Origin: a virus
Virus record (IMG/VR): IMGVR_UViG_3300028557_001360
Span: 1-29,162 of that record
Length of the DNA stretch: 29,162 nucleotides
Reading direction: 5' to 3' (one strand)
Shown here: positions 1,194-28,161 of the stretch, in pieces
Position numbering within the stretch: position 1 is the stretch's first letter
Layout: every line of letters begins with the position of its first letter
Made by a program: the position numbers and the translations under genes
The notes under the pieces: generated by a model
What the model was told of the DNA's origin: nothing
The model's database searches: none
Seen by the model: the letters and a program-made list of their open reading frames with translations, nothing else

Positions 1194-1559
1194 CTACTGT
1201 AAGAGGCCCCGCTCTATAAACTTCTCTACTGATTTAGTAGGCTTTAAAATATTTTTGAATATTTCTACAGCTTCTTCAGGAAAGCATAGATTAGAGCATG
1301 TATAGCAATCAAATGCAACAAACCCAAATTCTGGATAAGTGTGTATAGAAAGATGAGATTCTTCAAGTAGCACTAGTACAGTTAGCCCCTGAGGCTCAAA
1401 ATCTTTATGTATTACGTCAACAACTGTGGCCCCAGTTGCATTTGCGGCAAGCAAGCATAGTGATTTCATGAAAGGTAGATTATCTATGCGATCAGAGTCG
1501 CAACCCCAGAAATCAACTACGCAATGCTTGCCATAAGTGCCAAATGAATTTTGTTGCAT
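1194..1559 (-). CDS. speD: S-adenosylmethionine decarboxylase proenzyme (SpeD/SpeH class 1b family)
   Basis: A 121-residue pyruvoyl-dependent decarboxylase. In the family it normally makes decarboxylated AdoMet, the aminopropyl donor for spermidine. The self-processing site is LLEESHLSIHTYPE, giving Glu67-Ser68 cleavage with Ser68 becoming the pyruvoyl group. His73 and Cys88 sit at the positions of the processing His and the proton-donor Cys (numbering offset by five from the Thermotoga enzyme, from memory). The length fits the short prokaryotic class. I chose the ATG at 1559 rather than the GTG at 1577: GGAGG lies 11 bases before the ATG, and the ATG overlaps the preceding stop (TAATG), indicating translational coupling to the virion-like gene. 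Some SpeD relatives, including phage ones, are reported to act on ornithine or arginine, so the substrate is not certain. No spermidine synthase gene is in the window. Confidence 0.9.
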   Translation of the reverse strand: MQQNSFGTYGKHCVVDFWGCDSDRIDNLPFMKSLCLLAANATGATVVDVIHKDFEPQGLTVLVLLEESHLSIHTYPEFGFVAFDCYTCSNLCFPEEAVEIFKNILKPTKSVEKFIERGLLQ

Positions 1560-2980
1560 TAATATATTTCCCTCCACTGAGCTGTAACCGCAGCTTTTGC
1601 GCGCACGTTTCCTGTTTCTGTTGTTTTTACAGATATAATATATACTTCAGAATTTGTAGAGTCATAATTTTGAACAATAAAGTTCTTTTTTGAATCAGTT
1701 GCAGAGGGTATTCCAGCAACTCCTTGACTATTTGCAGAACCACCAGCTGGAATGACTACAGAAGATAATACATTTATTACAGTAGTAGAGCCAGTAAACG
1801 CAGCAGCATCAATGGAATATTCAACAACACTATTTGTATTTACTGAAACCCAAGTTAATGAGGAAGTTCCGCCAGCATTGACTAAATAACTTGCATCTGG
1901 AATTTTTATAATTTCAACATAACTTGAATTGTCTTGTATGTGTGCAGTAATATTATTTAATTTTACAGTTGCTCTATTTGGATAGCCTTGATAGGTATCT
2001 TTTAGTCTAAATGCAAGCACTGGAAATCTAGAGGCACCAGTTGTCGATGTTTGTCTTAGTGACCCACTATCAATAGACCAATCAATTCCGCTTTGTATAT
2101 ATCCACCTTCTGCCATAACAGAAGAACATATTTGAGAGAAGCTTGCACTTGCTGATATAGCTGCAGTATTTACAATTTCGCATCGAACTGGCAGGTTTGG
2201 ATTAGCGATATACACAGTATTATCGAAGTTTGAGTGATAGTATTCATGCGCAACTATATATTCACCATTATGCACGAATCCACATCTAACTCTACCAACT
2301 CCGAGCCATTGAAAATCTATAAATATTAGCTGCGCTTTAGATATATTGAGATTAAATTCACTCTTGCCAGTCCCATCGCAACGATCAATATTCCATTGAC
2401 TTTGTGGTATTCGCGTACCAACCTCTGATGCTGTTCCAGTAACATACGATCGTATAACCCAATTTAATGTACCAGCATCTGTACCGTTTGATGTTGGAAG
2501 TCCTACCTGTTCAAAATAGATTCCATCTCTATCATCAAAGTATCCAGTTCTTTTTGTAACATTCGCTTCTGCATATCCAAAATTAAATGAACTTAAAATT
2601 AATTGTGACTTGCCAGGTTGATAGTGATGGTATAATTTTGTTTGATGTATTACATATGAACCACTACTAGTGCCCGTTGCCAATGTTGCAGCTGCTTGAT
2701 TTAAGGCAAAAGAGACTGTGCCACTAGCACTTACAGAATCTAAAAAGTTTGGGTCAATTGCATATAAATGCTTATAGTCTCCAAGAGTAAGTGGTTCGCT
2801 CACTCTCGCTCTACCAAATGCATCTACACTTCCATTATCTCCTGTACTACCAACACTAACAACTCTAATAGCATCTTGAGAAAGTTCAAGAACATCCGAA
2901 CGTTCGTTTTCTTCGCCAATAAAGTAGGCGCTCTGTGGTGGATAACTTATCGCCAGCTCAGGTCCTGAAATCTCTACCAT
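1559..2980 (-). CDS. Putative virion structural protein (tail/capsid-associated, unknown detail)
   Basis: 473 residues with a Ser/Thr/Gly/Ala-rich, beta-strand-like composition typical of phage virion proteins. No catalytic motif is visible. Around residues 225-270 it has the stretch FQWLGVGRVRCGFV followed by NPNLPVRCEI; I recall this kind of sequence from uncharacterised structural proteins of marine and other tailed phages. The C-terminal part (about residues 365-455) looks like a separate beta-rich domain. There is no signal peptide or membrane segment. The ATG follows a purine-rich GGGGGAG site. It sits between recJ and speD and overlaps the speD start by one base, an odd place for a structural gene since all neighbours upstream are replication genes. 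The virion assignment is inference. Confidence 0.6.
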   Translation of the reverse strand: MVEISGPELAISYPPQSAYFIGEENERSDVLELSQDAIRVVSVGSTGDNGSVDAFGRARVSEPLTLGDYKHLYAIDPNFLDSVSASGTVSFALNQAAATLATGTSSGSYVIHQTKLYHHYQPGKSQLILSSFNFGYAEANVTKRTGYFDDRDGIYFEQVGLPTSNGTDAGTLNWVIRSYVTGTASEVGTRIPQSQWNIDRCDGTGKSEFNLNISKAQLIFIDFQWLGVGRVRCGFVHNGEYIVAHEYYHSNFDNTVYIANPNLPVRCEIVNTAAISASASFSQICSSVMAEGGYIQSGIDWSIDSGSLRQTSTTGASRFPVLAFRLKDTYQGYPNRATVKLNNITAHIQDNSSYVEIIKIPDASYLVNAGGTSSLTWVSVNTNSVVEYSIDAAAFTGSTTVINVLSSVVIPAGGSANSQGVAGIPSATDSKKNFIVQNYDSTNSEVYIISVKTTETGNVRAKAAVTAQWREIY

Positions 2981-15225: not shown

Positions 15226-16155
15226 TTATGTTTTATTTTTTAGATACCAATCATATGTTATTTTTAATCCTTCTTCTAGTTTGGTTTTAGAAGTCCAACC
15301 TAATGACGCCAATTTTTCTACATTTAAAACTTTTTTAGGGGTTCCATTTGGCTGGTTTAAGTCCCAAACTGCGAATCCATTAAACCCAACAATTTTAGAA
15401 ATAATATCTGCTAGATTTTTAATTGTTATTCCAATTCCAGTTCCAACATTTATAATTTCTGAATCATTATAATTTAACATACAAAAAATAGCGGCATCTG
15501 CCAAATCATCAGCAAACATAAACTCTCTTATTGGGGATCCATCTCCCCAAAGATTAACGCTGGCGGCTCCAGATTTTTTTGCATCATGAAACTTTTTAAT
15601 TAAAGCTGGTATAACATGAGAGCTATTTAGGTCAAAATTATCATTAAATCCATAAAGATTTGTGGGCATTAATGATATAGCATTAAAATTATATTGCTGT
15701 TTTAATGATTGACACGCAACTATACCTGCTATTTTAGCAATAGCATAAGAATCATTTGTTTCTTCAAGAGAACCAGTTAATAACTCAGATTCTTTTATTG
15801 GTTGTCGAGCGAATTTTGGATATATACAAGAAGAACCTAAAAATAATAATTTTTTAACTTGACTTTTATGAGAAGTTTGAATAACATTATTTTGAATATT
15901 TAAATTATCTAAAATAAAATCAGCCTTATAGTTTTTATTTGCCAATATTCCTCCAACTTTTGCTGCGCTTAAAAATACATATTCTGGCTGTTCTTCTCTA
16001 AAAAAGGCTCTAACATCTTTTTGATTTCTCAAATCCAATTCATCTCTAGTTCTGAGAACCAAATTTCTATAACCTTCTTCTTTTAGCTTTCTAACAATTG
16101 CTGAGCCTACAAGTCCTTTGTGACCAGCTACAAAAATTCTAGAATCCCTGTTCAT
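15226..16155 (-). CDS. fcl: GDP-L-fucose synthase
   Basis: 309 residues; epimerises and reduces GDP-4-keto-6-deoxy-mannose to GDP-L-fucose with NADPH. The N-terminal Rossmann site is [13 protein letters not shown]. The catalytic SDR residues are in [11 protein letters not shown] (Ser) and [10 protein letters not shown] (Tyr-x-x-x-Lys). PTNLYG and [15 protein letters not shown] are also typical of Fcl/WcaG, whose usual length is about 310-320. I prefer the ATG at 16155, with AAGGA about 11 bases upstream; an in-frame GTG at 16161 is possible. The start lies inside the 3' end of gmd, so the pair is translated together. Paired with gmd and a GT10 fucosyltransferase in this window. Confidence 0.93.
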
Positions 16156-17152
16156 TTTCACACATATCCTTTACTAAATTCTTAAATGAAGTTTTTGGAT
16201 ACCATCCTAAAATTCTACGCGCCTTATCTGAATCGCCTAATAGGGTCTCAACTTCAGCTGGTCTGAAATATTTTGGATTAACTCGTATAATAGTTTTTCC
16301 AGTATTAGTATCAATACCTACTTCATCTAAGCCTTGACCTTGCCATTCAATATTTATGCCAAAGTAGGGCGCTGCTTCAACTACAAAATCACGAACTGAA
16401 TATTGTTTTCCTGTAGCAATTACAAAATCTTGAGGGTGCTTTTGTTGTAACATAAGCCACATCGCTTCTACAAAATCTTGTGCATGCCCCCAATCCCTGA
16501 GTGCATTTAAATTACCCAGTTGCAATTCTTTTTGAGTGCCTTCTGAAATTGCCTTCAATCCCATAGTAATTTTACGAGTAACAAATGTTTCCCCTCTACG
16601 TGGAGATTCATGATTAAAAAGAATTCCTGTGCAAGCATATAGACCATATGACTCTCTATAATTTTTTGTTATCCAATATGCATACATTTTAGCAACTCCA
16701 TAGGGAGAGCGTGGATAAAAAGGAGTAGTTTCACGCTGTGGTGTTTCTTGCACAAGTCCAAAGAGTTCAGATGTTGAAGCTTGATATATTTTAGTTTTAT
16801 TTTCAAGATTCAAAATTCTTACTGCTTCTAAAATTCTTAGGGTTCCCAATGCATCAACTTCTCCAGTATACTCTGGAATCTCAAAAGAAACTTTCACATG
16901 GCTTTGGGCGCCCAAATTATAAATCTCATCTGGTTGAATTTGCTGTATAACTCTAATAAGACTTGATTGATCAGTTAAGTCGCCATAATGTAACTTAAGA
17001 TTTGGATTATTATATAAATGGTCAATTCTTTTTGTGTTTATAGAAGAAGACCTTCTAATGATACCATGGACCTCATAGTTTTTACTTAATAATAGTTCAG
17101 CTAAGTACGAGCCATCCTGCCCTGTGATTCCAGTTATTAATGCTTTTTTCAT
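16139..17152 (-). CDS. gmd: GDP-mannose 4,6-dehydratase
   Basis: 337 residues; converts GDP-D-mannose to GDP-4-keto-6-deoxy-D-mannose, the first step to GDP-L-fucose. Signature parts: [19 protein letters not shown] (NADP Rossmann site), [22 protein letters not shown] (catalytic Ser/Thr and Glu), [12 protein letters not shown] (Tyr-x-x-x-Lys) and [18 protein letters not shown]. Length is close to the 345-370 typical of the family. AGGAGG lies six bases before the ATG, an ideal ribosome site, and a consensus promoter starts 27 bases upstream. First gene of the gmd-fcl-nrdJ unit. GDP-mannose must come from the host because no GMP-type gene is present. Confidence 0.95.
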
Positions 17153-17894: not shown

Positions 17895-18836
17895 TTACCA
17901 AATAAATTTTTCTTTATTAAATTCCACTATTCTTTTTAATTCATCATCAAAATTTGCATTGGGCTGCCACCCCAGATTTCTTAGCTTATCATCATTGATT
18001 GAGTATCTGACATCTTGGCCAGGCCTTGTATAATTAAAATCTAAATATTTTTCAAAATTATTATCATTTAAATAAAAGTATATTAATTTTTCTAAAACAT
18101 TTATATTCTTATCTTCATAATTGCCACCAATATTAAAAATTTCATTTACAACTTCAGATTCAATAATACGAATAATGGCTTGGGCAGTATCTTTAACATG
18201 AAGCCAAGTGCGCATTGGTTGACCTTGCTCATGAACAGGAATTTTTCTTCCTAATGAAATATATTTGCAAGATTTTGGAATCAATTTCTCTGGATTTTGT
18301 CGGATGCCATAATTATTTGATGGGCGCACGATAACATAAGGAACTTTATATGTTCTGGCCCAGGCTAGTACTAACATATCTGCGGATGCCTTTGTTGCTG
18401 AGTATGGGTTGGAAGGTTTCAACAAATCAGTTTCCACATGGGCACTTCCTATATTGTCTCCATAAACTTCGTCTGTACTAAAATGTAGCAATGTGGGCAT
18501 CTTATATCTATGTTTATTTTTTATAAGTTGCAATAAATTATGAACTCCATTGACATTTGTTTTTATGAATTCAACTGAGTCTTCGATCGAATTATCAACA
18601 TGGGTTTCTGCAGCTGTATTTATTATATAATCACAGTCATATAAAAATTGAAGGTCATTTATATCTGATTTTATAAATTTAAATGAATCATTTTGTGAAA
18701 ATTTTTCTATTAAATCTTCATGGGCCGCATACGTTACTTTATCAACACCTATAACTTTCCATCCTTTTTCTAAGCACATTTCTGTTATATGAGAGCCAAT
18801 GAAGCCGAGGCAGCCAGTAATATAAACTACTTTCAT
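17895..18836 (-). CDS. Nucleotide-sugar 4,6-dehydratase, RmlB-like
   Basis: 313 residues; extended SDR enzyme that makes a nucleotide-4-keto-6-deoxy sugar. Motifs: YITGCLGFIGSHI (NAD site), FSTDEVYG (Thr-Asp-Glu catalytic triple), NPYSATKASAD (Tyr-x-x-x-Lys), RPSNNYG, and the terminal NYTRPGQDVRYSINDDKLRNLGW, all characteristic of dTDP-glucose 4,6-dehydratases. It is somewhat shorter than RmlB (about 340-360). The STDEVYG form argues against an RfbG-type CDP-glucose dehydratase, although the adjacent RfbH-type dehydrase classically uses a CDP sugar; which nucleotide is used here is therefore open. Starts within the stop of the preceding SDR gene (ATGA). Confidence 0.85.
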   Translation of the reverse strand: MKVVYITGCLGFIGSHITEMCLEKGWKVIGVDKVTYAAHEDLIEKFSQNDSFKFIKSDINDLQFLYDCDYIINTAAETHVDNSIEDSVEFIKTNVNGVHNLLQLIKNKHRYKMPTLLHFSTDEVYGDNIGSAHVETDLLKPSNPYSATKASADMLVLAWARTYKVPYVIVRPSNNYGIRQNPEKLIPKSCKYISLGRKIPVHEQGQPMRTWLHVKDTAQAIIRIIESEVVNEIFNIGGNYEDKNINVLEKLIYFYLNDNNFEKYLDFNYTRPGQDVRYSINDDKLRNLGWQPNANFDDELKRIVEFNKEKFIW

Positions 18837-19621
18837 ATTATATACTGTTTCATTCCTTCCTCTAAGCCTTGAAACTTAAAATTAAAATTATTAAGAGTTT
18901 CAGAGCAACCTGTGTAGTTTTTATAATCTTCTTCAAATGAAATTTTACATTTTAAATTGTGGAAATTTTTAAAAAAAGTTACGATTTCTTTGAGGGTTTT
19001 CTTTTCTTTATAAACTATATTAACATCTTTTATTTCAGGGGAGTTTTCGATAAAATATTCAAAGATTGGAATTAAATCGCGGGCATAAAAAAAATCAAAA
19101 TGTCTATTTTTAATTATAATCTGATTATCATTTATAATTTTATCAAATAATATATTTTTTGAATTTGAAAAGCAACCAAATAATCGCAATGTATAGAAGT
19201 TATTAGCTGATAAAGATATATTAGATATAATATTTTTACTTAGACCATAATGATCTACTGGTCTAATATATTTTATTTCTATTTCTTTTTTTAAATTAAT
19301 TGAATATCTTCTATCATATTCTGCACCAGAACCTAAATTTATAAGTTTGCCAAATAAATCTCTTTGATAATATAAATTAAAGAAAATATTTAAATTTTGA
19401 TTAAAAGATTCAACATTAAAAACCTTTAAATCTCTTTCAAGACTTCCAGCGCAATTTATAATAATTTCTGGGCTATGCGTCTTTAATAAATTTGTTACTG
19501 AGTTAAAATTAGTTAAATCACACTCTGTTCTTGAAATTGGAACTATATTATATGGTAAATTATTTAATAAAAAACTTCCCAAAAATCCTTTTGAGCCAAG
19601 CAGTAGAATTTTATTTTCCAT
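18833..19621 (-). CDS. SDR-family nucleotide-sugar reductase/epimerase
   Basis: 262 residues. The N-terminal LLLGSKGFLGSFL is a Rossmann NAD(P) site, followed by IIINCAGS. An active-site-like DHYGLSKNI gives Tyr-x-x-x-Lys, and YTLRLFGCF corresponds to the post-catalytic strand. It resembles short 4-ketoreductases of deoxy-sugar pathways. From its position between the E1-like pair and the RmlB-like dehydratase, it may reduce the keto group of the product made by RfbH and the thiamine enzyme. Sequence is unusually rich in Asn, Phe, Ile and Lys, so the DNA looks even more AT-rich than its neighbours. The start overlaps the upstream stop by 11 bases and the stop overlaps the next ATG. Confidence 0.78.
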   Translation of the reverse strand: MENKILLLGSKGFLGSFLLNNLPYNIVPISRTECDLTNFNSVTNLLKTHSPEIIINCAGSLERDLKVFNVESFNQNLNIFFNLYYQRDLFGKLINLGSGAEYDRRYSINLKKEIEIKYIRPVDHYGLSKNIISNISLSANNFYTLRLFGCFSNSKNILFDKIINDNQIIIKNRHFDFFYARDLIPIFEYFIENSPEIKDVNIVYKEKKTLKEIVTFFKNFHNLKCKISFEEDYKNYTGCSETLNNFNFKFQGLEEGMKQYII

Positions 19622-20144
19622 AATCTGGAAATTCCACTAAGATAGTACTTTTATTTTTATAGTATGCATCTTTATATTCATCTAGTATTTTTTCTGGATT
19701 TTTCAATTCAACTATATCTATATTCTTACACATCAATCTAAATGCATCAGAGAAATTTCCTTTATGTTGATCTTGTGGGTCAACTGGAATTTCTGACCCT
19801 ACCGCAACACGCACTATAACCTTTGGATTATATTCTCCGTCGCTCATGAAATATAGTTTATCTAAATGATTTACAAGTTGATCTGTTGCACAGATAAGGA
19901 AGTTCCATCTTGGAAATACAGAGATTGGGACAAATCCATTTAGCGCCATTCCTACACTAAAGCCTAGTTGAAAATTCTCAGCCACAGGAAATTCTAGTCT
20001 TTTATCATCTGATATTTTTTGCAATGTATCAAACATTCCAGTACCTCCCCATGAAACAGATTGACCAATAAATAAAGTATCGCTTTGCTCGGAGAGCCAT
20101 ATCATGGCCTCTTCTAATTTTTCTTTATAATATTGTTGTGTCAA
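19611..20144 (-). CDS. Thiamine-diphosphate enzyme, E1-beta-like (pyrimidine-binding) subunit, minimal
   Basis: 177 residues, only about half of a normal E1-beta or transketolase C-terminal protein (about 325): the pyrimidine domain is present but the following transketolase-C domain is absent. FIGQSVSWGGTGMF is followed by FPVAENFQLGFSVGMALNGF, where E56 is the conserved Glu that activates the cofactor. VFPRWNFL and VRVAVGSEIPVDPQDQHKG also fit. The start is TTG, supported by AAGGAGG eight bases upstream; it overlaps the stop of the E1-alpha-like gene, so the two subunits are coupled and probably form one enzyme. Likely activity: transfer of a two-carbon unit from pyruvate or a ketose to a keto sugar, inferred from the neighbours. 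Confidence 0.8.
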   Translation of the reverse strand: MTQQYYKEKLEEAMIWLSEQSDTLFIGQSVSWGGTGMFDTLQKISDDKRLEFPVAENFQLGFSVGMALNGFVPISVFPRWNFLICATDQLVNHLDKLYFMSDGEYNPKVIVRVAVGSEIPVDPQDQHKGNFSDAFRLMCKNIDIVELKNPEKILDEYKDAYYKNKSTILVEFPDYGK

Positions 20145-20761
20145 AACTGTATCCTCCTTCCAGCGCCCGCATGAGGATATTTTGTATTGGTATATTTATA
20201 ATATATTAAATTAGGCTGTTCGACCCAATTTGCTACATTCGATATATACCATGGCTTATCTCTGCCCCAAATTAAATCTGTTGGAGTAGTAACTGATAGG
20301 CCGTTATCTTCTACGACAAATGTTATGGGCAGGTTATGATTAACTGAGTATTTATATGCTTCATGGAAGGCACCTGTTTCAGCGCTCATATCACCCAGCC
20401 AACACCATACCTTTGAATCTTCTTCTTTTCTTTTTATAGATTCAGCTATTCCAACAGCAATAGATGGAATTCCTCCAACAATAGAAGAGCAGACAATTTT
20501 GTACTCGTTTAAATTCATTACCATACTCTTTCCCTCAACTATTTTTGATAATAATTCGTCTGGGGGTACGCCCTTTAACAGGCATTGATAATGATTTCTC
20601 CAAGTGCAACAAACCCAATCATTTTTTACATCTACTCTTTCAAAGACTTTTTGAATTTGTTGCTCGTTATTATAGTATAAATGTATGGGTGCTTTAATTT
20701 CCGCATTATTAAATTTTTCAGCAACTAAACTTTCAAACTGTATCAAATTTTCTTTATCCAT
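20141..20761 (-). CDS. Thiamine-diphosphate enzyme, E1-alpha-like (diphosphate-binding) subunit, minimal
   Basis: 206 residues. TWRNHY (Arg-x-His like E1-alpha RDH) is followed by SSIVGGIPSIAVGIAESIK and the cofactor motif WLGDMSAETGAFHEAYKYS...VVEDN, that is G123-D124 to N153, which binds Mg and thiamine diphosphate. The usual C-terminal third of E1-alpha is missing; the protein closes with YPHAGAGRRIQF. I take the ATG at 20761 (AGGAG eight bases upstream, one base after the rfbH stop) rather than an upstream ATG inside rfbH. Together with the next gene it makes a compact two-subunit enzyme. Resemblance to the AviB1/AviB2 type, which attaches a two-carbon branch to a sugar, is from context and memory. 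Confidence 0.82.
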   Translation of the reverse strand: MDKENLIQFESLVAEKFNNAEIKAPIHLYYNNEQQIQKVFERVDVKNDWVCCTWRNHYQCLLKGVPPDELLSKIVEGKSMVMNLNEYKIVCSSIVGGIPSIAVGIAESIKRKEEDSKVWCWLGDMSAETGAFHEAYKYSVNHNLPITFVVEDNGLSVTTPTDLIWGRDKPWYISNVANWVEQPNLIYYKYTNTKYPHAGAGRRIQF

Positions 20762-20762
20762 T

Positions 20763-22088
20763 TTATATACTCCTAAAAAATTCATCAACACATTGTCCAA
20801 TATAATCAATTTGTTCAGGTGTTATAACGGGACTAGTTCCATGAAAAAATGTATCAAGTGTAACTTTTGTTGCATTTGGGTACTTGTGCAAATCCTTTGC
20901 TATATCAGCATACGCTGGTTGCAACATAATGTTACCTGCAAAATATGGTCTAGTTTGAATTTTTTTATCTTCTAAGAAGTCAATATACTTTGCCCTAGAA
21001 AAAGGTGCTACATCTTTTATAGTAAGTGGAAAAGCAAACCAGCTGGGAACACTGCCATTTGTAGCTTTTGGTAGAAAGAAAAAATCCTCATATTTTTCAT
21101 ATATAGCAAAAAGTAAGTTGTAATTTCTAATTCTTAAATTTGTTATTGTTTCTAATTTTTCCAACTGCTGTAATCCCATAGAGGCCTGAAGTTCGATTGG
21201 CTTTAGATTGTATCCAATTTCTTCATATACATATTTATGGTCAAATATTTCATTGGGCATTGATGGTAGCCAGTTGCTAAATCTCTTATTACATGTTCCA
21301 CATTTTAAAGTATTTGCTTTTGGTCCTACGCAATAACAACCACGACCCCATTCTCTAAAACTTCTTAGAATGGTTTCTTGCTCTTTTGTATTACACGAAA
21401 CAAAGCCACCTTCGCCCATTGTAATATGATGTGCGGGATAGAAACTACAGGAGGCCATCTCTCCAAAGCTTCCCAATGGCTTACCTTGAAATGTTGAGCC
21501 AAGTGCATCACAGCAATCTTCTAATAAAATTAAGTTGTATTTTTTTACCAGATCCATGACGCGATTCATATTCGGCGGATTACCTAAAACATGAGCAAAT
21601 GTAATTACTTTAATATCATTTTCTTGTAGAGCTTTTTCAGCTTGATCTAAATCTATATTTAAAGTTTCTAGTTCTATATCTACAAATATAGGTTCAAATC
21701 CAACTTGTAGAATAGGATTCAATGTTGTGGGAAATCCAGCAACAGGCACAAGAACTTTTGTTCCTTTGGGAAAATTATGTCCATTTTTACTTGTAAGACT
21801 TGTCATCATGAGTAGATTGGCACTCGATCCACTATTTGTCAGTATTCCATAGCTCTTATCAAAAAATCTAGGAAACTTACTTTCAAATTTTAGAGAATCT
21901 GAACCCATCACCAGCCAACCATTTAATAAACTTTGGACTGCGGCCACATATTCAGAGTGGTCAAAGTACGAACCTGCATAGTTAACATAATCTTTTCCAG
22001 CAGTCCAAGTTTTTGTAGCTTGTTTTTCTTCTATATACTCTTGTATTAAATTTAAAATATTATTTAATTTACTATCTCCAATATGCAT
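20763..22088 (-). CDS. rfbH: RfbH-type NDP-4-keto-6-deoxyglucose 3-dehydrase (PLP/PMP and [2Fe-2S])
   Basis: 441 residues; removes the 3-hydroxyl of CDP-4-keto-6-deoxyglucose to give a 3,6-dideoxy sugar intermediate. It has the DegT/DnrJ/EryC1 fold (NSGSSANLL; LLEDCCDALGS). The lysine that normally holds PLP is replaced by histidine: FYPAHHITMGEGG with H220, as in the Yersinia E1 enzyme. Cysteines C251, C253, C263 and C266 in GRGCYCVGPK...KCGTC fit the iron-sulfur ligands of that family, and FDHKYVYEEIGYNLK also matches. The length equals the usual 437 or so. I use the ATG at 22088 with GGAG seven bases upstream; the longer frame would run into the upstream gene. The NADH-dependent iron-sulfur reductase partner is not in the window. 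Confidence 0.92.
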   Translation of the reverse strand: MHIGDSKLNNILNLIQEYIEEKQATKTWTAGKDYVNYAGSYFDHSEYVAAVQSLLNGWLVMGSDSLKFESKFPRFFDKSYGILTNSGSSANLLMMTSLTSKNGHNFPKGTKVLVPVAGFPTTLNPILQVGFEPIFVDIELETLNIDLDQAEKALQENDIKVITFAHVLGNPPNMNRVMDLVKKYNLILLEDCCDALGSTFQGKPLGSFGEMASCSFYPAHHITMGEGGFVSCNTKEQETILRSFREWGRGCYCVGPKANTLKCGTCNKRFSNWLPSMPNEIFDHKYVYEEIGYNLKPIELQASMGLQQLEKLETITNLRIRNYNLLFAIYEKYEDFFFLPKATNGSVPSWFAFPLTIKDVAPFSRAKYIDFLEDKKIQTRPYFAGNIMLQPAYADIAKDLHKYPNATKVTLDTFFHGTSPVITPEQIDYIGQCVDEFFRSI

Positions 22089-22986
22089 AATTTGTCTCCA
22101 GAGAACTATATTGATTTTTTCTTTGTGGCTCATCTATTTGCAAAGGATATATCCAATGTTCGTTCATCATTTCGTGCCAACCAAAATAAATTTCATGATT
22201 CATCCATCTATTACCTTTTATACCAAAAAATAATTGCAATATACCACCTGTTTGAATCCCAACCTTACCATTTTCTTTTGCAAAATTAGCATATAATGCA
22301 GATTGTTGAGATACTGCTGAAAGAAGAATATCGTAGTCATACGTTTGAATTTTGGCTTTTATATATTCAACAGTATCTTCCCATGAGTTACAATTAGGAT
22401 ATTGTCTATCATCTAATAAGGGATGAAGTGGCGCTCTAATACAATCCACCAATTCAAAAGGAACTATGTTATTTTTATTCTCACCCCATACTAAATCAAT
22501 CTTTTCCCATTGTCTAAGTATGCTTTCGTAGTGTGGACTTATGACCAGTACCTTTTTGTCCTTCAAATTTTTTGTCCAAGGTTCTTCTGGTTTGCCAAAT
22601 TTTGCCCCAAGAAGAAGACACCCTGGGTCTAACACATGATAACTATCGCCAGTAAAAAAAACTGGCTTATCTTTAAATTTTTCTAAGAATCTATGATTGT
22701 GCCTTAATTCTTCGCCCACATCAACAAAACCTAGAATATCAGATTTTAATGCAGCATCTAAAACTTTTGGCAATACTTTTTGATAAGCATATTCCATTGT
22801 TGGAGGATATATTCCAGCCTCAACAAGAACACTAGTATTCCAAATAGATTCAAAGGGTCTAGCCCCCATATCTTGAAAGGATAAAACATGGCCTACCGTA
22901 TTATCAATTCTTACTATAGAAAAAGATTTATTTTCTTTTATCCAATTTGAAATAAGTGTGTTTATTTCAAAAAAATTATTGCTCAT
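22072..22986 (-). CDS. Uncharacterised polysaccharide-cluster protein, possibly a GT-D-like transferase
   Basis: 304 residues. No classical nucleotide-sugar motif is seen. The clearest block is KVGIQTGGILQLFFGIKGNR near the C-terminus (residues 254-273), which I associate with uncharacterised proteins in capsule and LPS loci, some described as GT-D fold. Earlier features are the alternating acidic/basic segment DVGEELRHNHRFLEKF and VLVISPHYESILRQW. Soluble, no signal peptide. It starts inside the fucosyltransferase stop (ATGA) and its 3' end overlaps the rfbH start by 17 bases, so it belongs to the same coupled operon. A role in transferring or modifying one of the cluster sugars is plausible, but I do not assign a reaction. 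Confidence 0.62.
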   Translation of the reverse strand: MSNNFFEINTLISNWIKENKSFSIVRIDNTVGHVLSFQDMGARPFESIWNTSVLVEAGIYPPTMEYAYQKVLPKVLDAALKSDILGFVDVGEELRHNHRFLEKFKDKPVFFTGDSYHVLDPGCLLLGAKFGKPEEPWTKNLKDKKVLVISPHYESILRQWEKIDLVWGENKNNIVPFELVDCIRAPLHPLLDDRQYPNCNSWEDTVEYIKAKIQTYDYDILLSAVSQQSALYANFAKENGKVGIQTGGILQLFFGIKGNRWMNHEIYFGWHEMMNEHWIYPLQIDEPQRKNQYSSLETNYAYWR

Positions 22987-23846
22987 ATAATACCTCTTGA
23001 GATTAAAATTTTCCTTAAAAAGTCATATAGAGGGCCTAGTGTTGGCATATCGTCAAATACAAATTCACGAACAATTCTTGCGAATGAATCTTTATTTTTT
23101 TCAAGATAGTCTATATATTTATAAAAATTTTCTAAATCTAAAAAATTTTTATAATTTATAAAGCTCAAACTATTGAAATCTTTTCTCACAGAATCGTGTC
23201 CAAAATATAGTGGAACTGTACCAGCAACTTTAGCCTCAAGAACCTTTTCTGTTATATAGCCATTTGAAAGTGCATTTTCAAAGCAAATATTGAATCTAAA
23301 ATTTTTCAACAATTCAATTTTGGAACCCGCAAATGGATTGTTAAATACAGAGCCAAATCCATATACAGGTTTATACTGATTCAATTTATTTGCAACTTCT
23401 AATCTATTGGGAACAGGATTACCAATAACAATGCTACAAAAGTATGGTCTATTCCAAACCTCATCCACATCCCATTGATACAATAGGTCAGACTTCTTTA
23501 TTTCTGCATGAATAAAATTAGGCTCATCCCACCAATTAATATATAAATACCAATGAGGAAGTCTAAAGTTTCTTCCATCGTGTGTATCAAAGTCAAAAGA
23601 TAAAGAGTAGTCATAGTTAATTAGATTAGGAGATTTATTTTCACCTGTATAAAATATTTTTATTGCCTTGTCATTTTTTACAGATTCAATTCTTTTTCCG
23701 AATGTAGCACCAAGTATTAAATCTGCTTCTTCTGGAGAGGAATTAAAGTTAATCTCTTTATCATTCAATAAGTCTTTAAAAACTAGATTAAACCAGTTAG
23801 AATGTACATCGAAGCCTGGCCACATATCAATATAAGAGATGTTCAT
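22983..23846 (-). CDS. Alpha-1,3-fucosyltransferase-like glycosyltransferase, GT10 family
   Basis: 287 residues; family enzymes transfer L-fucose from GDP-fucose to an acceptor sugar. The diagnostic GT10 block is complete: FRFNICFENALSNGYITEKV (184-202) followed by EAKVAGTVPLYFG to residue 216, with E190 and the Y-I-T-E-K core. IFYTGEN (64-70) upstream also matches bacterial fucosyltransferases, and no stalk or signal anchor is present, as in the soluble bacterial form. The ATG at 23846 has GGAGG five bases ahead; a TTG four codons upstream is unlikely. With gmd and fcl in the same window the donor can be made by the phage itself, given host GDP-mannose. The acceptor (virion protein or host glycan) is unknown. 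Confidence 0.87.
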   Translation of the reverse strand: MNISYIDMWPGFDVHSNWFNLVFKDLLNDKEINFNSSPEEADLILGATFGKRIESVKNDKAIKIFYTGENKSPNLINYDYSLSFDFDTHDGRNFRLPHWYLYINWWDEPNFIHAEIKKSDLLYQWDVDEVWNRPYFCSIVIGNPVPNRLEVANKLNQYKPVYGFGSVFNNPFAGSKIELLKNFRFNICFENALSNGYITEKVLEAKVAGTVPLYFGHDSVRKDFNSLSFINYKNFLDLENFYKYIDYLEKNKDSFARIVREFVFDDMPTLGPLYDFLRKILISRGII

Positions 23847-23847
23847 T

Positions 23848-24558
23848 TTAACCTCCAAAATAATGGACTAATTCATCTTTATAAAATCTTATAGTATGAA
23901 TAGTGGTTTGTAAGTTCTGATCGCACTTTTCAATAAGATATTGCATTTCTTTATATGCTTCTTCTTGTGCATAACCAGTGCCTTGGGGGTGCTGAACTGT
24001 ATAATTATAATCTCTTATAACCAATCTTTTTTGTAAAAAAGAATTGGCACATAATAAAAGATCGAGGCCCCAACCATATTTTAAATGAGTTAATTGTGGC
24101 ACAGCATTTTTCAAAATACTTAATACATCTTTATGTATCATCCATACTGTACAGTCTGGATTTGATACAACTTTTAAATTCTCGTATTGTTTGAATTGTA
24201 TTGTATTTACATCTGCATTATTTGCGCTGTACCAAGTATAGTCTACGTTGGGCGCATAAATACCCCATCCAAATTCATCAAAATATTTTATTCCATCTTT
24301 TACTAAATCCTGCCACTTATCAAAAGTAATATCACCTTGAATATGAAAAAATATATCTCCATCAAATAATTCAATTGCTTTTAAAAATTGATGAGCAAAG
24401 TAAGATTCTTCACCTATATTTACCCATTCGTCTTTTTTATTATTATCATCGCTATTTATGACAGTTACCTTATCAAAAATATTCTTTAAATCAGATTCAA
24501 TTTTACAAGTTTTTTCATATTGGCCTCGCCAATTAAATATAAAAGGTTGTATGTTCAT
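23848..24558 (-). CDS. Putative GT-A glycosyltransferase
   Basis: 236 residues. DGDIFFHIQGDITFDKWQDL around residues 65-84 is the acidic strand expected in a GT-A fold. VVSNPDCTVWMIHKDVL and LKYGWGLDLLLC follow, like the acceptor/catalytic region of GT2-type enzymes. No membrane segment. The ATG at 24558 has GGAG six bases upstream, better than an in-frame TTG at 24570. The stop is one base before the next gene. It lies in a run of transferases around the nucleotide-sugar genes, so it probably adds one residue of a small glycan; sugar and acceptor are unknown. Confidence 0.7.
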   Translation of the reverse strand: MNIQPFIFNWRGQYEKTCKIESDLKNIFDKVTVINSDDNNKKDEWVNIGEESYFAHQFLKAIELFDGDIFFHIQGDITFDKWQDLVKDGIKYFDEFGWGIYAPNVDYTWYSANNADVNTIQFKQYENLKVVSNPDCTVWMIHKDVLSILKNAVPQLTHLKYGWGLDLLLCANSFLQKRLVIRDYNYTVQHPQGTGYAQEEAYKEMQYLIEKCDQNLQTTIHTIRFYKDELVHYFGG

Positions 24559-24560
24559 GT

Positions 24561-25256
24561 TTATCTCCAAGGCACTTGTAAGTTATAGGGATTTCCATAT
24601 TGAACAGAGCTTTCATTTCCAATAACTTGCGAGCCTTGAATTGCGATTGGGGGCTCAAGCCAAAATACTGCAACTTTATTATTTCTTACTGCATTTGTAA
24701 ATTCTTCATCAATAGGTAATTTAATTTGCTTCAAGTTCTCATGAAAATGTTTTATAGCTGTTCGATTGAATATTAGACTATCAGCGCATCTAAATTGATC
24801 AACTGGGGATAATATAACTTGCTGACCATCTGACTGCAATCTAAGCCCCATACCACAACCAATAGAAATGCAATTAAAGTCAACGTCTTGGACTGTCCTC
24901 ATAATTTCATTCATAATTAAAATAAAATTAGGGTGAAGAATTACATCACTTTCTAAAATTAAAATTTTATCATAGCTCTTATTATATGCATCTTCAAATA
25001 CCTTTAAAAAATTTATTGCAATAGAAGCTTCTGAATTTCTAATTGGGTAGCCAGTTCTCCATGGATATAATGATTCTAATGTCCCATCTCTTACTACGTA
25101 TTGATTTACTTCATCTTCTGATAGCTCAGTGCCCCATTTATAAAACTCAATGCTGCCTTTTATACTATTAGTTGATAGCCAATTAGCCCAATTATCGTAT
25201 CGTTCTTTTTCAAATTTTTCAGAACAAATTATATAAACCCAATCTAGATTAATCAT
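24561..25256 (-). CDS. GT25-like glycosyltransferase
   Basis: 231 residues. WVYIICSEKFEKERYDNWAN at the start, then ASIAINFLKVFEDAYN and KILILESDVILHPNF (acidic E-S-D for the metal) with a later DSLIFNRTAIKHF and LPIDEEFTNAVR: the arrangement of LPS-type beta-galactosyl/glucosyl GT25 enzymes. No transmembrane segment. The start overlaps the stop of the cytidylyltransferase-like gene (ATGA). Donor unknown; GT25 members generally use UDP-sugars. Confidence 0.72.
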   Translation of the reverse strand: MINLDWVYIICSEKFEKERYDNWANWLSTNSIKGSIEFYKWGTELSEDEVNQYVVRDGTLESLYPWRTGYPIRNSEASIAINFLKVFEDAYNKSYDKILILESDVILHPNFILIMNEIMRTVQDVDFNCISIGCGMGLRLQSDGQQVILSPVDQFRCADSLIFNRTAIKHFHENLKQIKLPIDEEFTNAVRNNKVAVFWLEPPIAIQGSQVIGNESSVQYGNPYNLQVPWR

Positions 25257-25684
25257 TTAGCACTCCATTTCTCCAGAATCCAACTTGAACTATTCTTCTT
25301 GTAGTCTCCACCAACTGCAAACTTAAAAGTTAAATTATCGTCTTTTATTGACATTTCTGGTATATTATCTTTTGTTCGATCGCCACCATTGGCGAATATA
25401 ATGTGCTTAGTTGTAAATAGTTTTCTTACCTTTATAATAGCATCTTTTGCTGAATTATCTGTATCGTCAAAATGTAAAACCAAATCAACCATTCTTAAAT
25501 TAGAAATAACAGATTCTCGCTCATCCCAAGTTAAAAAAGGCTTACCCTTTTTTCGTGTAAGCCATTCATCACTATTTATTCCAACTACTAAAAAGTCTCC
25601 CAATGCTTTTGCCGCATTGAAATAAGCTATATGTCCCGAATGAATAGGGTCAAAACCACCTGTTACAAGAACTATTGTTTTCAT
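25253..25684 (-). CDS. Nucleotidyltransferase of the HIGH family (heptose-1-P adenylyl- or glycerol-3-P cytidylyl-type)
   Basis: 143 residues. TGGFDPIHSGHIAYF holds the HxGH motif (H15-S-G-H18) and WDERESVISNL the second, RTKDNIPEMS resembling the C-terminal active-site segment (RTxxIS). Such enzymes activate sugar phosphates or glycerol phosphate by transferring AMP or CMP. NGGDRTKDNIPE looks nearest to the adenylyltransferase half of HldE-like proteins, but substrate cannot be fixed from sequence. It is not RfbF (glucose-1-phosphate cytidylyltransferase has a different fold and about 255 residues), so it would not supply CDP-glucose for the RfbH step. Overlaps both neighbours by four bases. 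Confidence 0.8.
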   Translation of the reverse strand: MKTIVLVTGGFDPIHSGHIAYFNAAKALGDFLVVGINSDEWLTRKKGKPFLTWDERESVISNLRMVDLVLHFDDTDNSAKDAIIKVRKLFTTKHIIFANGGDRTKDNIPEMSIKDDNLTFKFAVGGDYKKNSSSWILEKWSAK

Positions 25685-27015: not shown

Positions 27016-28161
27016 TTATTTCCTCCTACTCAAAATGATTCCTAGAGTTCCCATATCAACTGGGTCTGTTGCTTTCCAATCAGCAGAAATACCGTAGTTT
27101 TTTTGCAAGAATTCTAACCCATCTTGGCGCCAATCTTTTTTCTTGGCTGCTTCTTCTGCCTCAACTTCGGCCCAATATTTGTCCAAGTATTTAAGAGGGT
27201 CTACATGAAATTTCCAGCCAAAACTAGGACTTGACTTCGACCGTATTTCATAATGAAGATGGGACCCAGCAGATTGGCCTGTATTGCCCTGATAGCCTAG
27301 CAATGTACCCTTATCTACTTTTTGATCTAGGCGAGCAACAATACTATCTAAGTGAGCATAAATATGAACATGTTTGTTCTTGTCAAGGACGCACACAGTA
27401 TTGCCAAATCCGCCTAAGCCAGTGCCTGTTTGTGCAAACGCTGCAAAAAGCACGTCACCAGGAGCTGTTGCATATACTTCACCTTTATGTTGTTTTACAA
27501 GATCTATTCCTGTATGAAAATGCTTTTTCCCTGTAATAGGATGAACGCGCTCAGCAAAAGGCGATGTGAGTCTATCATATGTTTCAAAATGTTTTATTGT
27601 CATGGGTAGTCCTTTCCGCACTATTAGTGCTGATGAAGTAGGGCGTTCCCATCCACTTGTTGGGCTGACAGATCCGCCCCCATCTAGGTTCAGAATATCT
27701 ATACAATCTGACATTCTATTAGCTAGCTCTGTGAGTGTTATATTATCGTGTGTTGTATATAAGCGAATAGTTCCATCAGGAAGCACTCCTATAGCAGAAC
27801 GTTTTGTGGCTCTCAATATATCAGGCGCTGTGTTTTCTGCCTTTGAATTTATAAATACTTTTCCATCTTTCTTAATCCCAGGTGTCGAAAGAAATGCTAG
27901 CTTATAATCTGTCCCCTGAATTTGACCCACATAGGGTCTACCTTCAAAAGGAATGATAAAGGCTGACCATGGAAGTTCTTTATAATACTTCTGGTAATAT
28001 TTACCATCCTTTATAACATGACCTATAGGCCAATACTTATTAGCTTTGTCTAAGCCAGCAAAAAGACAATTCTGATAATATATAGCATCATCTGGTTTTA
28101 TTTGAGAAGGTGCTTTACCTACCTCGATTAGTAGGTCTAAATCTTCTGGTCTAAGATACAT
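27016..28161 (-). CDS. Lysin: phosphodiester-glycosidase domain plus M23 peptidase
   Basis: 381 residues, the cell-wall-degrading enzyme of the lysis block. Residues about 55-185 resemble the NAGPA (phosphodiester alpha-GlcNAcase) domain: SAIGVLPDGTIRLYTTHDNI and LNLDGGGS (157-164). Residues about 195-325 are an M23 (lysostaphin-type) peptidase with HTGID (H216, D220), HIYAHLD (H270) and HLHYE (H301, H303) zinc/catalytic positions. A helical linker (WAEVEAEEAAKKKDW) leads to a C-terminal segment ending DWKATDPVDMGTLGIILSR, possibly wall-binding. It has no signal peptide, so export depends on the holin. It starts within the xkdX-like gene end. An alternative is a virion-associated tail lysin, but the neighbouring holins favour endolysin. 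Confidence 0.85.
   Translation of the reverse strand: MYLRPEDLDLLIEVGKAPSQIKPDDAIYYQNCLFAGLDKANKYWPIGHVIKDGKYYQKYYKELPWSAFIIPFEGRPYVGQIQGTDYKLAFLSTPGIKKDGKVFINSKAENTAPDILRATKRSAIGVLPDGTIRLYTTHDNITLTELANRMSDCIDILNLDGGGSVSPTSGWERPTSSALIVRKGLPMTIKHFETYDRLTSPFAERVHPITGKKHFHTGIDLVKQHKGEVYATAPGDVLFAAFAQTGTGLGGFGNTVCVLDKNKHVHIYAHLDSIVARLDQKVDKGTLLGYQGNTGQSAGSHLHYEIRSKSSPSFGWKFHVDPLKYLDKYWAEVEAEEAAKKKDWRQDGLEFLQKNYGISADWKATDPVDMGTLGIILSRRK

Follow-up and report, generated by a model that had tools for sequence, protein, structure and literature searches.

A viral gene cassette joining an RfbH-type 3-dehydrase to a split thiamine diphosphate enzyme: a putative route to a C4-branched deoxy sugar

Why should a virus carry, in one tightly coupled run of genes, a sugar 3-dehydrase and two proteins that look like fragments of a thiamine diphosphate (ThDP) enzyme? 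The question was raised by the virus record IMGVR_UViG_3300028557_001360, which was analysed in its entirety (29,162 bases; hereafter the window). The genes concerned encode an RfbH-type 3-dehydrase, two small proteins resembling parts of the alpha and beta chains of keto-acid dehydrogenase E1 (here PP and PYR), a short-chain dehydrogenase/reductase (SDR) and an RmlB-like dehydratase. We think it rather probable that this cassette is a phage-encoded pathway for a nucleoside diphosphate (NDP) sugar, leading to a C4-branched 3,6-dideoxyhexose similar to yersiniose, for which we infer the donor, the nucleotide, the stereochemistry and the product. The five genes are as follows.

20763-22088, minus strand: RfbH/E1-type 3-dehydrase of NDP-4-keto-6-deoxyhexoses; 441 amino acids, ATG start; H220, C193, C251, C253, C266.
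20141-20761, minus strand: PP subunit, an E1-alpha-like domain alone, binding the diphosphate of ThDP; 206 amino acids, ATG start; H57, G123-D124 ... N153.
19611-20144, minus strand: PYR subunit, an E1-beta-like pyrimidine-binding domain alone; 177 amino acids, TTG start with GGAGG upstream; E56, H127.
18833-19621, minus strand: RmlD-like SDR, proposed last-step ketoreductase; 262 amino acids; Pfam Epimerase, 44.1 bits.
17895-18836, minus strand: RmlB-like NDP-glucose 4,6-dehydratase; 313 amino acids; STDEVYGD and YSATK motifs.

The cassette lies entirely on the minus strand, in the order upstream open reading frame (ORF), RfbH, PP, PYR, SDR and RmlB-like gene. The initial annotation, made from the letters of the window alone, had described RfbH as coupled through one-base or overlapping junctions to E1-alpha/E1-beta-like subunits and then to an SDR, and this was borne out when the ORFs, coordinates and junctions were rechecked: a 1-base gap separates RfbH from PP, and there are overlaps of 4 bases (PP/PYR), 11 bases (PYR/SDR), 4 bases (SDR/RmlB-like) and 17 bases (upstream ORF/RfbH). 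The span it gave, 19611-22088, contains RfbH, PP and PYR but leaves the SDR just outside, and the set of four coupled genes was correct except that the fifth, RmlB-like gene had been overlooked; the 4,6-dehydratase belongs to the set.

The RfbH protein scored above the cut-off of the NCBIfam RfbH equivalog (NF011936; 452.7 versus 423 bits) and aligned over almost its entire length with the Yersinia 3-dehydrase E1 of known structure (3bcx; E 4e-105). H220 aligned with the histidine that is mutated to lysine in 3bb8, and C193, C251, C253 and C266 aligned with the cysteines of 3bcx, the last one being spaced further out than in that protein. The alignment and the equivalog score agree with the earlier assignment of H220 and the cysteine set of CDP-4-keto-6-deoxyglucose 3-dehydrase to this protein. 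The four [2Fe-2S] cysteines were kept in 46 of 46 aligned RfbH sequences, including that of the window; as these were chosen by their PAHH motif, the cysteine counts alone count as evidence and the histidine count is not independent. The PAHH motif itself was present in all 60 viral proteins with at least 51% identity. A different DegT protein is present in some of the loci that have no close RfbH. Several loci carried an RfbH-related protein of about 380 amino acids that keeps the catalytic histidine but not the cysteine set, an apparent loss of the iron-sulphur cluster (L036:4999-6138, with similar proteins in L021, L022, L023, L026, L027, L035, L037, L056 and L072). The L036 protein was still nearest to RfbH (3bcx, E 8e-57).

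PP matched the ThDP-binding part of E1 alpha, as the Pfam family E1_dh (53.9 bits, cut-off 22). This was the only Pfam family matched by the window's PP; a bacterial relative, in locus L100, also matched TPP_enzyme_C just above the cut-off (22.3 versus 21.9 bits). A profile of PP matched human pyruvate dehydrogenase (PDH) E1 alpha with an E-value of 6e-12, and the AlphaFold2 model of the protein (mean pLDDT 89.0) gave the same human chain as its best Foldseek match (3exe_A; E 8e-9, TM-score by target length 0.38). For PYR, the Transket_pyr score of 20.1 bits fell under the cut-off of 27, the L100 relative reaching 44.0 bits. Its profile matched the first part of E1 beta chains (5.5e-11), and its model (mean pLDDT 90.2) was closest to human E1 beta (3exe_B; E 5.9e-12, TM-score 0.46). 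Residues H57, G123, D124 and N153 of PP were invariant in 27 sequences, and E56 and H127 of PYR in 31 sequences, with E56 aligned to a glutamate of human E1 beta. We take these residues to play the parts they have in E1 enzymes, E56 presumably being the catalytic glutamate and GD...N the ThDP motif.

Both subunits are short and without the normal C-terminal parts of E1. The E1_dh score and the fold matches uphold the description 'E1-alpha/E1-beta-like', with the amendment that each subunit consists of one domain. PYR has no transketolase C-terminal domain: none of the 77 closed viral PYR ORFs reached 260 amino acids, and 77 of 79 bacterial ones were also shorter than this. PYR is consequently not to be classed as a keto-acid dehydrogenase E1, or as a member of the alphaKADH2 group of sugar-branching enzymes compared below, although its mode of action may be similar. 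Among phage protein families, PHROG 34187, whose function is unknown, is matched by both subunits of the window. The best NCBIfam matches of PP and PYR were nevertheless PDH E1 families, and PDH E1 alpha and beta are listed as viral genes in the excerpts of a virome study (PMC3877843), so that the pair might be imagined as auxiliary metabolic genes supplying the E1 portion of a keto-acid dehydrogenase complex of the host type. The one-domain subunits, the uniformly small PYR ORFs, scores far under the family cut-offs (71.4 versus 393.85 and 47.6 versus 321 bits) and neighbours that are sugar genes speak against this, and on grounds of size, scores and neighbours we rejected it as extremely improbable.

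The two remaining members belong to families of sugar nucleotide enzymes and could be placed less precisely. The SDR matched RmlD (4wpg) with an E-value of 1e-4 and lay below the RmlD equivalog TIGR01214 (28.4 versus 224 bits). The RmlB-like protein matched 2hun, which is named a hypothetical dTDP-glucose 4,6-dehydratase (E 1e-63), and its best family was TIGR01181 (303.6 bits, under the equivalog cut-off of 365.1). One virus with the cassette carried an RmlA-like gene (320.4 bits, cut-off 360.65), and this single gene, together with the RmlB-like partner, suggests by family resemblance a dTDP-linked route.

Is this gene set peculiar to the window? Viral contigs were scanned for PP with a single sequence, giving 118 stretches with a relative, and with a profile, giving 315; in each case many came from near-identical viruses. 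The best 80 of the 118 were fetched, and the best 80 of the 315 were listed. The 80 viral loci include repeats of the same virus, and merging identical proteins left 65 distinct PP proteins. When the proteins of the 80 loci were clustered without a list of expected genes and joined at 30% identity, a level that brings other proteins besides true RfbH into the RfbH/DegT cluster, five families dominated: PP (78 loci), PYR (76), RmlB-like (73), RfbH/DegT (71) and SDR (68), the next family reaching 19. Two of the 80 loci were identical to the window in their cassette genes. Among the 65 distinct PP proteins, PYR was adjacent in 64, an RmlB-like gene of at least 50% identity was present in 61, RfbH of at least 50% identity in 46 (adjacent in 29) and any SDR match in 57; the SDR match adjoined PYR in 50. 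Restricting the count to the 44 distinct cases flanked on each side by 4 kb or more gave RfbH in 33, the RmlB-like gene in 43, and RfbH, RmlB-like, PYR and SDR together in 30.

The commonest gene orders, taken from best matches in the 80 loci, were RfbH-PP-PYR-SDR-RmlB (19), RfbH-RmlB-PP-PYR-SDR (16), RmlB-RfbH-PP-PYR-SDR (14) and, without a close RfbH, RmlB-PP-PYR-SDR (16), so that the set appears to be kept together despite rearrangement. Twenty viral records picked because they had no close RfbH near PP were searched over their whole length: 14 held a homologue (three at 66-68% identity, the rest at 29-38%), and none was found in the other six, which are 4.7-17 kb long. When 24 records selected among the 80 were searched with the terminase profile phrog_2, 13 gave a match, but so did 11 of 14 cellular control genomes; the result supports, rather than proves, the phage nature of the records. 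The recurrence of the cassette neighbours is more than chance, and the neighbourhood check suggested with the initial annotation thus bore out the linkage of RfbH, PP, PYR and SDR in viruses, in at least three gene orders.

If PP and PYR act on the product of a 3-dehydrase, the DegT-family proteins beside them should be of the dehydrase kind. A histidine at the place of the lysine that binds pyridoxal phosphate sets 3-dehydrases apart from aminotransferases (excerpts of PMC8987622). In DegT proteins of at least 250 amino acids, this column held histidine in 77 of 77 viral cases, found with a profile built mostly from histidine-type members, and in 58 of 62 from bacterial loci, the other four having lysine. 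As a control, DegT proteins were taken from six of the bacterial genomes with PP/PYR; 30 of 79 PF01041 places became loci, and the 27 ORFs scored had 20 lysines, one serine and six histidines. Five of the six histidine proteins lie in PP/PYR loci, being separated as cassette family by score and place, and the sixth is RfbH-like by motif. Outside the cassette family, then, histidine was found in one of 22, a set that includes one lysine protein (L177) which also lies in the PP/PYR locus of L142.

The bacterial loci came from a genome scan for PP that gave 120 relatives, of which the best 80 were kept (47-56% identity). These occur in Verrucomicrobia, Nitrospira, Burkholderiales, Pelagibacteraceae, SAR116 and others, and their neighbours were DegT (57 loci), GHMP kinase (56), B12-radical-SAM (51), two SDR families (45 and 26) and nucleotidyltransferase (41); all are lower bounds, since gene calling was incomplete in loci rich in GC. 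Among solved structures, ColD was nearest to the DegT protein of L100 (2gms, E 5.7e-52), and His-His was found at the site in 57 of the 57 members of this protein's cluster. The histidine column implies that the usual partners of PP/PYR are enzymes producing 3-deoxy-4-keto sugar nucleotides, and as far as can be read from the sequences this linkage, in viruses and bacteria alike, would be what a C4-branching route needs. A second PP/PYR pair was seen in L055 (9019-18657), beside a histidine-type DegT gene.

The pathway that we favour would run in four steps. The RmlB-like dehydratase, going by its family, would convert NDP-glucose, probably host-supplied dTDP-glucose, to NDP-4-keto-6-deoxyglucose. 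RfbH, whose family and catalytic residues were described above, would then take off the C3 hydroxyl with the aid of pyridoxamine phosphate (PMP) and the [2Fe-2S] cluster, giving NDP-4-keto-3,6-dideoxyhexose. Electrons might come from a host ferredoxin or flavodoxin system, in the manner of SpnQ, a dTDP-sugar 3-dehydrase that works with ferredoxin/flavodoxin reductases in place of E3 (excerpts of PMC8987622). In the third step PP and PYR, to judge from predicted fold, conserved residues and linkage, may assemble into one ThDP enzyme, which would decarboxylate an alpha-keto acid, most simply pyruvate, and transfer the acyl anion to the ketone at C4, which would become a tertiary alcohol bearing an acetyl branch. 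The SDR would finally reduce the ketone of the branch, and nearby glycosyltransferases could attach the finished sugar to the virion or to the host surface. The chemistry of the third and fourth steps would be that of yersiniose synthesis, in which a ThDP enzyme puts activated acetaldehyde from pyruvate on a CDP-linked deoxy-keto sugar and the ketone is then reduced (excerpts of PMC12247030 and PMC4753412). In antibiotic pathways C2 branches on keto sugars come, or have been proposed to come, from E1-like ThDP enzymes with two subunits (excerpts of PMC12247030, PMC4753412 and PMC10338323). Each step of such a route finds a suitable gene among the viral five.

The branching step could be right and the donor different, a longer or hydroxylated keto acid giving a product more like erwiniose or caryophyllose than yersiniose. 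ErwE and the caryophyllose enzyme do favour longer, functionalised donors, but both are YerE-like, and the E1-like group appears to be specialised for C2 branches (excerpts of PMC12247030); for PP and PYR we judge such a donor distinctly unlikely.

Several observations count against the proposed pathway as a whole, besides the missing C-terminal domain of PYR. The SDR is poorly conserved (26-49% identity to that of the window, its own copies excepted) and only distantly RmlD-like, and the RmlB-like protein, being below its equivalog cut-off, does not fix the nucleotide. Eight short DegT-like ORFs with lysine (100-204 amino acids, in eight loci) occur in the viral cassette loci, seven of them below the profile threshold when no length limit was set, so that viruses also hold some DegT relatives of another kind.

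L026:7452-8039, L060, L069, L071, L073, L074, L075 and L077: short lysine-type DegT-like ORFs in cassette loci.

An E3-type (DdhD-type) reductase, sought as PF00175, was found in none of the 24 viral records, which may be incomplete and whose hosts may supply E3; 10 of the 14 control genomes had a match. With regard to this absence, ascD/ddhD appears among virome genes in the excerpts of PMC3877843, from which some viruses may carry E3. The want of a reductase also bears on another possibility, that RfbH acts as an aminotransferase leading to an amino sugar and that PP/PYR serves a separate purpose. SpnQ transaminates when its reductase is absent, but ColD and E1 did not show transamination (excerpts of PMC8987622), and in RfbH the four cluster cysteines are retained in all 46 aligned sequences, and the catalytic histidine is kept as well. 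We therefore regard aminotransferase activity as very unlikely.

Further points against come from the company that PP/PYR keeps elsewhere, its relatives occurring with GHMP kinase, nucleotidyltransferase and B12-radical-SAM genes. A second PP/PYR cassette was found in bacteria and, using a bacterial query, in 48 viral contigs, with B12-radical-SAM in 44, PYR in 43, SDR in 32, a ColD-like gene in 26 and GHMP kinase in 21. In the other 22 of these loci no ColD-like gene was found in the fetched stretch, some but not all of them being on short contigs. In the cyanophages S-SM2 and P-TIM68, PP and PYR are fused (L082:7977-9185 and L083:8046-9191), and the neighbours of the fused protein are annotated as a sugar kinase, a nucleotidyltransferase and a phosphoheptose isomerase; RfbH was absent from the 8 kb fetched on either side. 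The substrate thus need not be identical everywhere, PP/PYR may have others, and both contexts leave room for another reaction. The second viral cassette comprises loci L197-L244 (for example L203:6500-12200). In two viral contigs, L231 and L234, genes of the two cassettes occur together.

The main rival takes PP/PYR for a small, split enzyme, either transketolase-like or a decarboxylase, that would serve to prepare an unusual sugar phosphate and would leave the RfbH product alone. The bacterial PP/PYR loci hold an HddA-like GHMP kinase and an HddC-like nucleotidyltransferase (both under the HddA and HddC cut-offs), an HddA-like kinase is the one counted in 21 of the 48 second-cassette loci, the fused cyanophage protein adjoins kinase and isomerase annotations, and in Foldseek PYR also resembles DXS and a split-gene transketolase. 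The five conserved viral genes, however, include no kinase or isomerase, and the other members make and use a 4-keto sugar nucleotide; NTP_transferase occurred in three of the 24 viral records, the nucleotidyltransferase of the bacterial loci was missing from all 48 loci of the second cassette, and the nearest fold matches of the two subunits are E1 alpha and E1 beta of keto-acid dehydrogenases. On balance a sugar-phosphate enzyme seems unlikely, if deserving of attention. The same NTP_transferase count led us to reject a nucleotidyltransferase as a conserved member of the cassette.

A tree of PP/PYR, with S-SM2 as its sole root, separated 63 viral from 79 bacterial sequences as two clades with support values of 0.969 and 0.964; of the 158 pairs kept, 143 remained without duplicates, rows with stops, missing partners or short matches, including P-TIM68, having been dropped. 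A strict split between viruses and bacteria was rejected, since the later scan gave the 48 bacterial-type viral contigs, which are absent from the tree; the clades rather follow cassette type.

The branched 3,6-dideoxy sugar pathway put forward in the initial annotation gains from the RfbH score, the viral linkage and the histidine-type 3-dehydrases, and loses something to the missing E3-type reductase and to the second cassette with its other genes. Beyond the window, we raise a wider interpretation tentatively, as one that may well fail: PP/PYR would constitute a new class of ThDP enzymes that acylate ketones, minimal in being split and limited to two domains, and dedicated to 3-deoxy-4-keto sugar nucleotides. 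Viruses would keep two parallel cassettes, one with RfbH and the RmlB-like gene, the other with B12-radical-SAM and often a kinase and a ColD-like gene. Branched sugars, a feature elsewhere of certain O-antigens and antibiotics, would thereby be put on particles or hosts at large scale, and some catalogued 'viral PDH E1' genes may be PP/PYR. Were the proposed pathway true, phages would possess genes for almost every step towards a branched deoxy sugar, a pared-down ThDP enzyme would make a carbon-carbon bond on a ketone, a reaction sought in biocatalysis, and a role would follow for PHROG 34187 and for genes in the 315 viral contig stretches. Perhaps the same role would apply to the virome PDH E1 genes that have been assigned to carbon metabolism (excerpts of PMC3877843).

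Outside the conserved five, the window holds other sugar genes.

16139-17152, minus strand: GDP-mannose 4,6-dehydratase (Pfam), of a neighbouring GDP-fucose route.
15226-16161, minus strand: GDP-fucose synthase-like SDR (Pfam), of the same neighbouring route.
22983-23858, minus strand: GT10 fucosyltransferase-like protein (Pfam Glyco_transf_10 and FucT_N), a nearby glycosyltransferase.
25253-25684: CTP_transf_like gene, recurring in some loci only.

The families of the first two were each found in 19 of the 80 viral loci, and with the GT10-like gene they flank the cassette, so that the phage may add fucose as well. Elsewhere, positions 1194-1577 (minus strand) encode an S-adenosylmethionine decarboxylase (Pfam AdoMet_dc, 108.1 bits), a polyamine-synthesis gene on a phage fragment, and positions 27016-28161 (minus strand) a protein combining phosphodiester glycosidase (NAGPA) and M23 peptidase domains, close to a phage holin (28633-29028), with which it probably forms a lysis module.

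How does the proposed route compare with what is already known? The presence of rfbH in sargassum phages is already in print (excerpts of PMC11295528), and PDH E1 alpha/beta, transketolase, ascD/ddhD and rfbF appear among virome genes (excerpts of PMC3877843). Transketolase and pyruvate dehydrogenase were not found in the excerpts of PMC7029224 and PMC12911398, which name phage lipopolysaccharide and sugar genes. The statement in the initial annotation that no phage pathway had been characterised this way agrees with searches of the open-licence PMC literature, which yielded no such pathway among the papers listed, single genes aside.

The closest likeness is to the CDP-yersiniose pathway of Yersinia pseudotuberculosis, in which a deoxy-keto sugar nucleotide likewise receives an acyl group at C4 from a ThDP-dependent enzyme and is then reduced. 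Its genes, which we take to be DdhA-D, YerE and YerF, presumably place a 3-dehydrase of the E1/RfbH family upstream. The phage cassette differs in having an RmlB-like protein and not a CDP-glucose dehydratase, and in the E3-type reductase that was not found in the 24 viral records. YerE-like decarboxylases are single chains with PYR, middle and PP domains, whereas PP and PYR are here two separate one-domain ORFs. YerE itself is a single flavoprotein dependent on thiamine pyrophosphate, of the decarboxylase group (excerpts of PMC12247030 and PMC4753412), and the phage enzyme would be a two-chain, E1-like one.

In this last respect it resembles alphaKADH2 and its relatives among the branching enzymes (aldgamycin, kibdelomycin KbDH-alpha/beta, AviB1/AviB2, Pau11/Pau12 and EvdU5/EvdS3), two-subunit E1-like ThDP enzymes for which a C2 branch has been shown or proposed (excerpts of PMC12247030, PMC4753412 and PMC10338323). 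Those enzymes serve antibiotic clusters, whereas the phage proteins consist of PP and PYR domains alone, are viral and go with a 3-dehydrase. Two-subunit branching enzymes, AviB1/AviB2 among them, presumably have full E1-type subunits with a C-terminal domain, so that the parallel with AviB1/AviB2 drawn in the initial annotation stands for the kind of enzyme but not for the one-domain build of the phage subunits.

For the 3-dehydrase step there are further relatives, although the spinosyn route is not known to have a ThDP branching step and colitose is unbranched. SpnQ of spinosyn synthesis is likewise a [2Fe-2S] PMP 3-dehydrase, acting on a dTDP sugar with ferredoxin/flavodoxin reductases and not E3 (excerpts of PMC8987622), and ColD/WbdK of the colitose route are akin to the ColD-like DegT partner of PP/PYR in L100. 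A 168-aa chain of the split ThDP enzyme AzcB/AzcC (9u8q; an alpha-imino acid decarboxylase by its PDB title) matches PYR remotely, at 11% identity. The parts of the phage cassette are of known kinds; none of the open-licence PMC papers listed by the searches joins RfbH and a split ThDP enzyme poor in domains into a sugar pathway.

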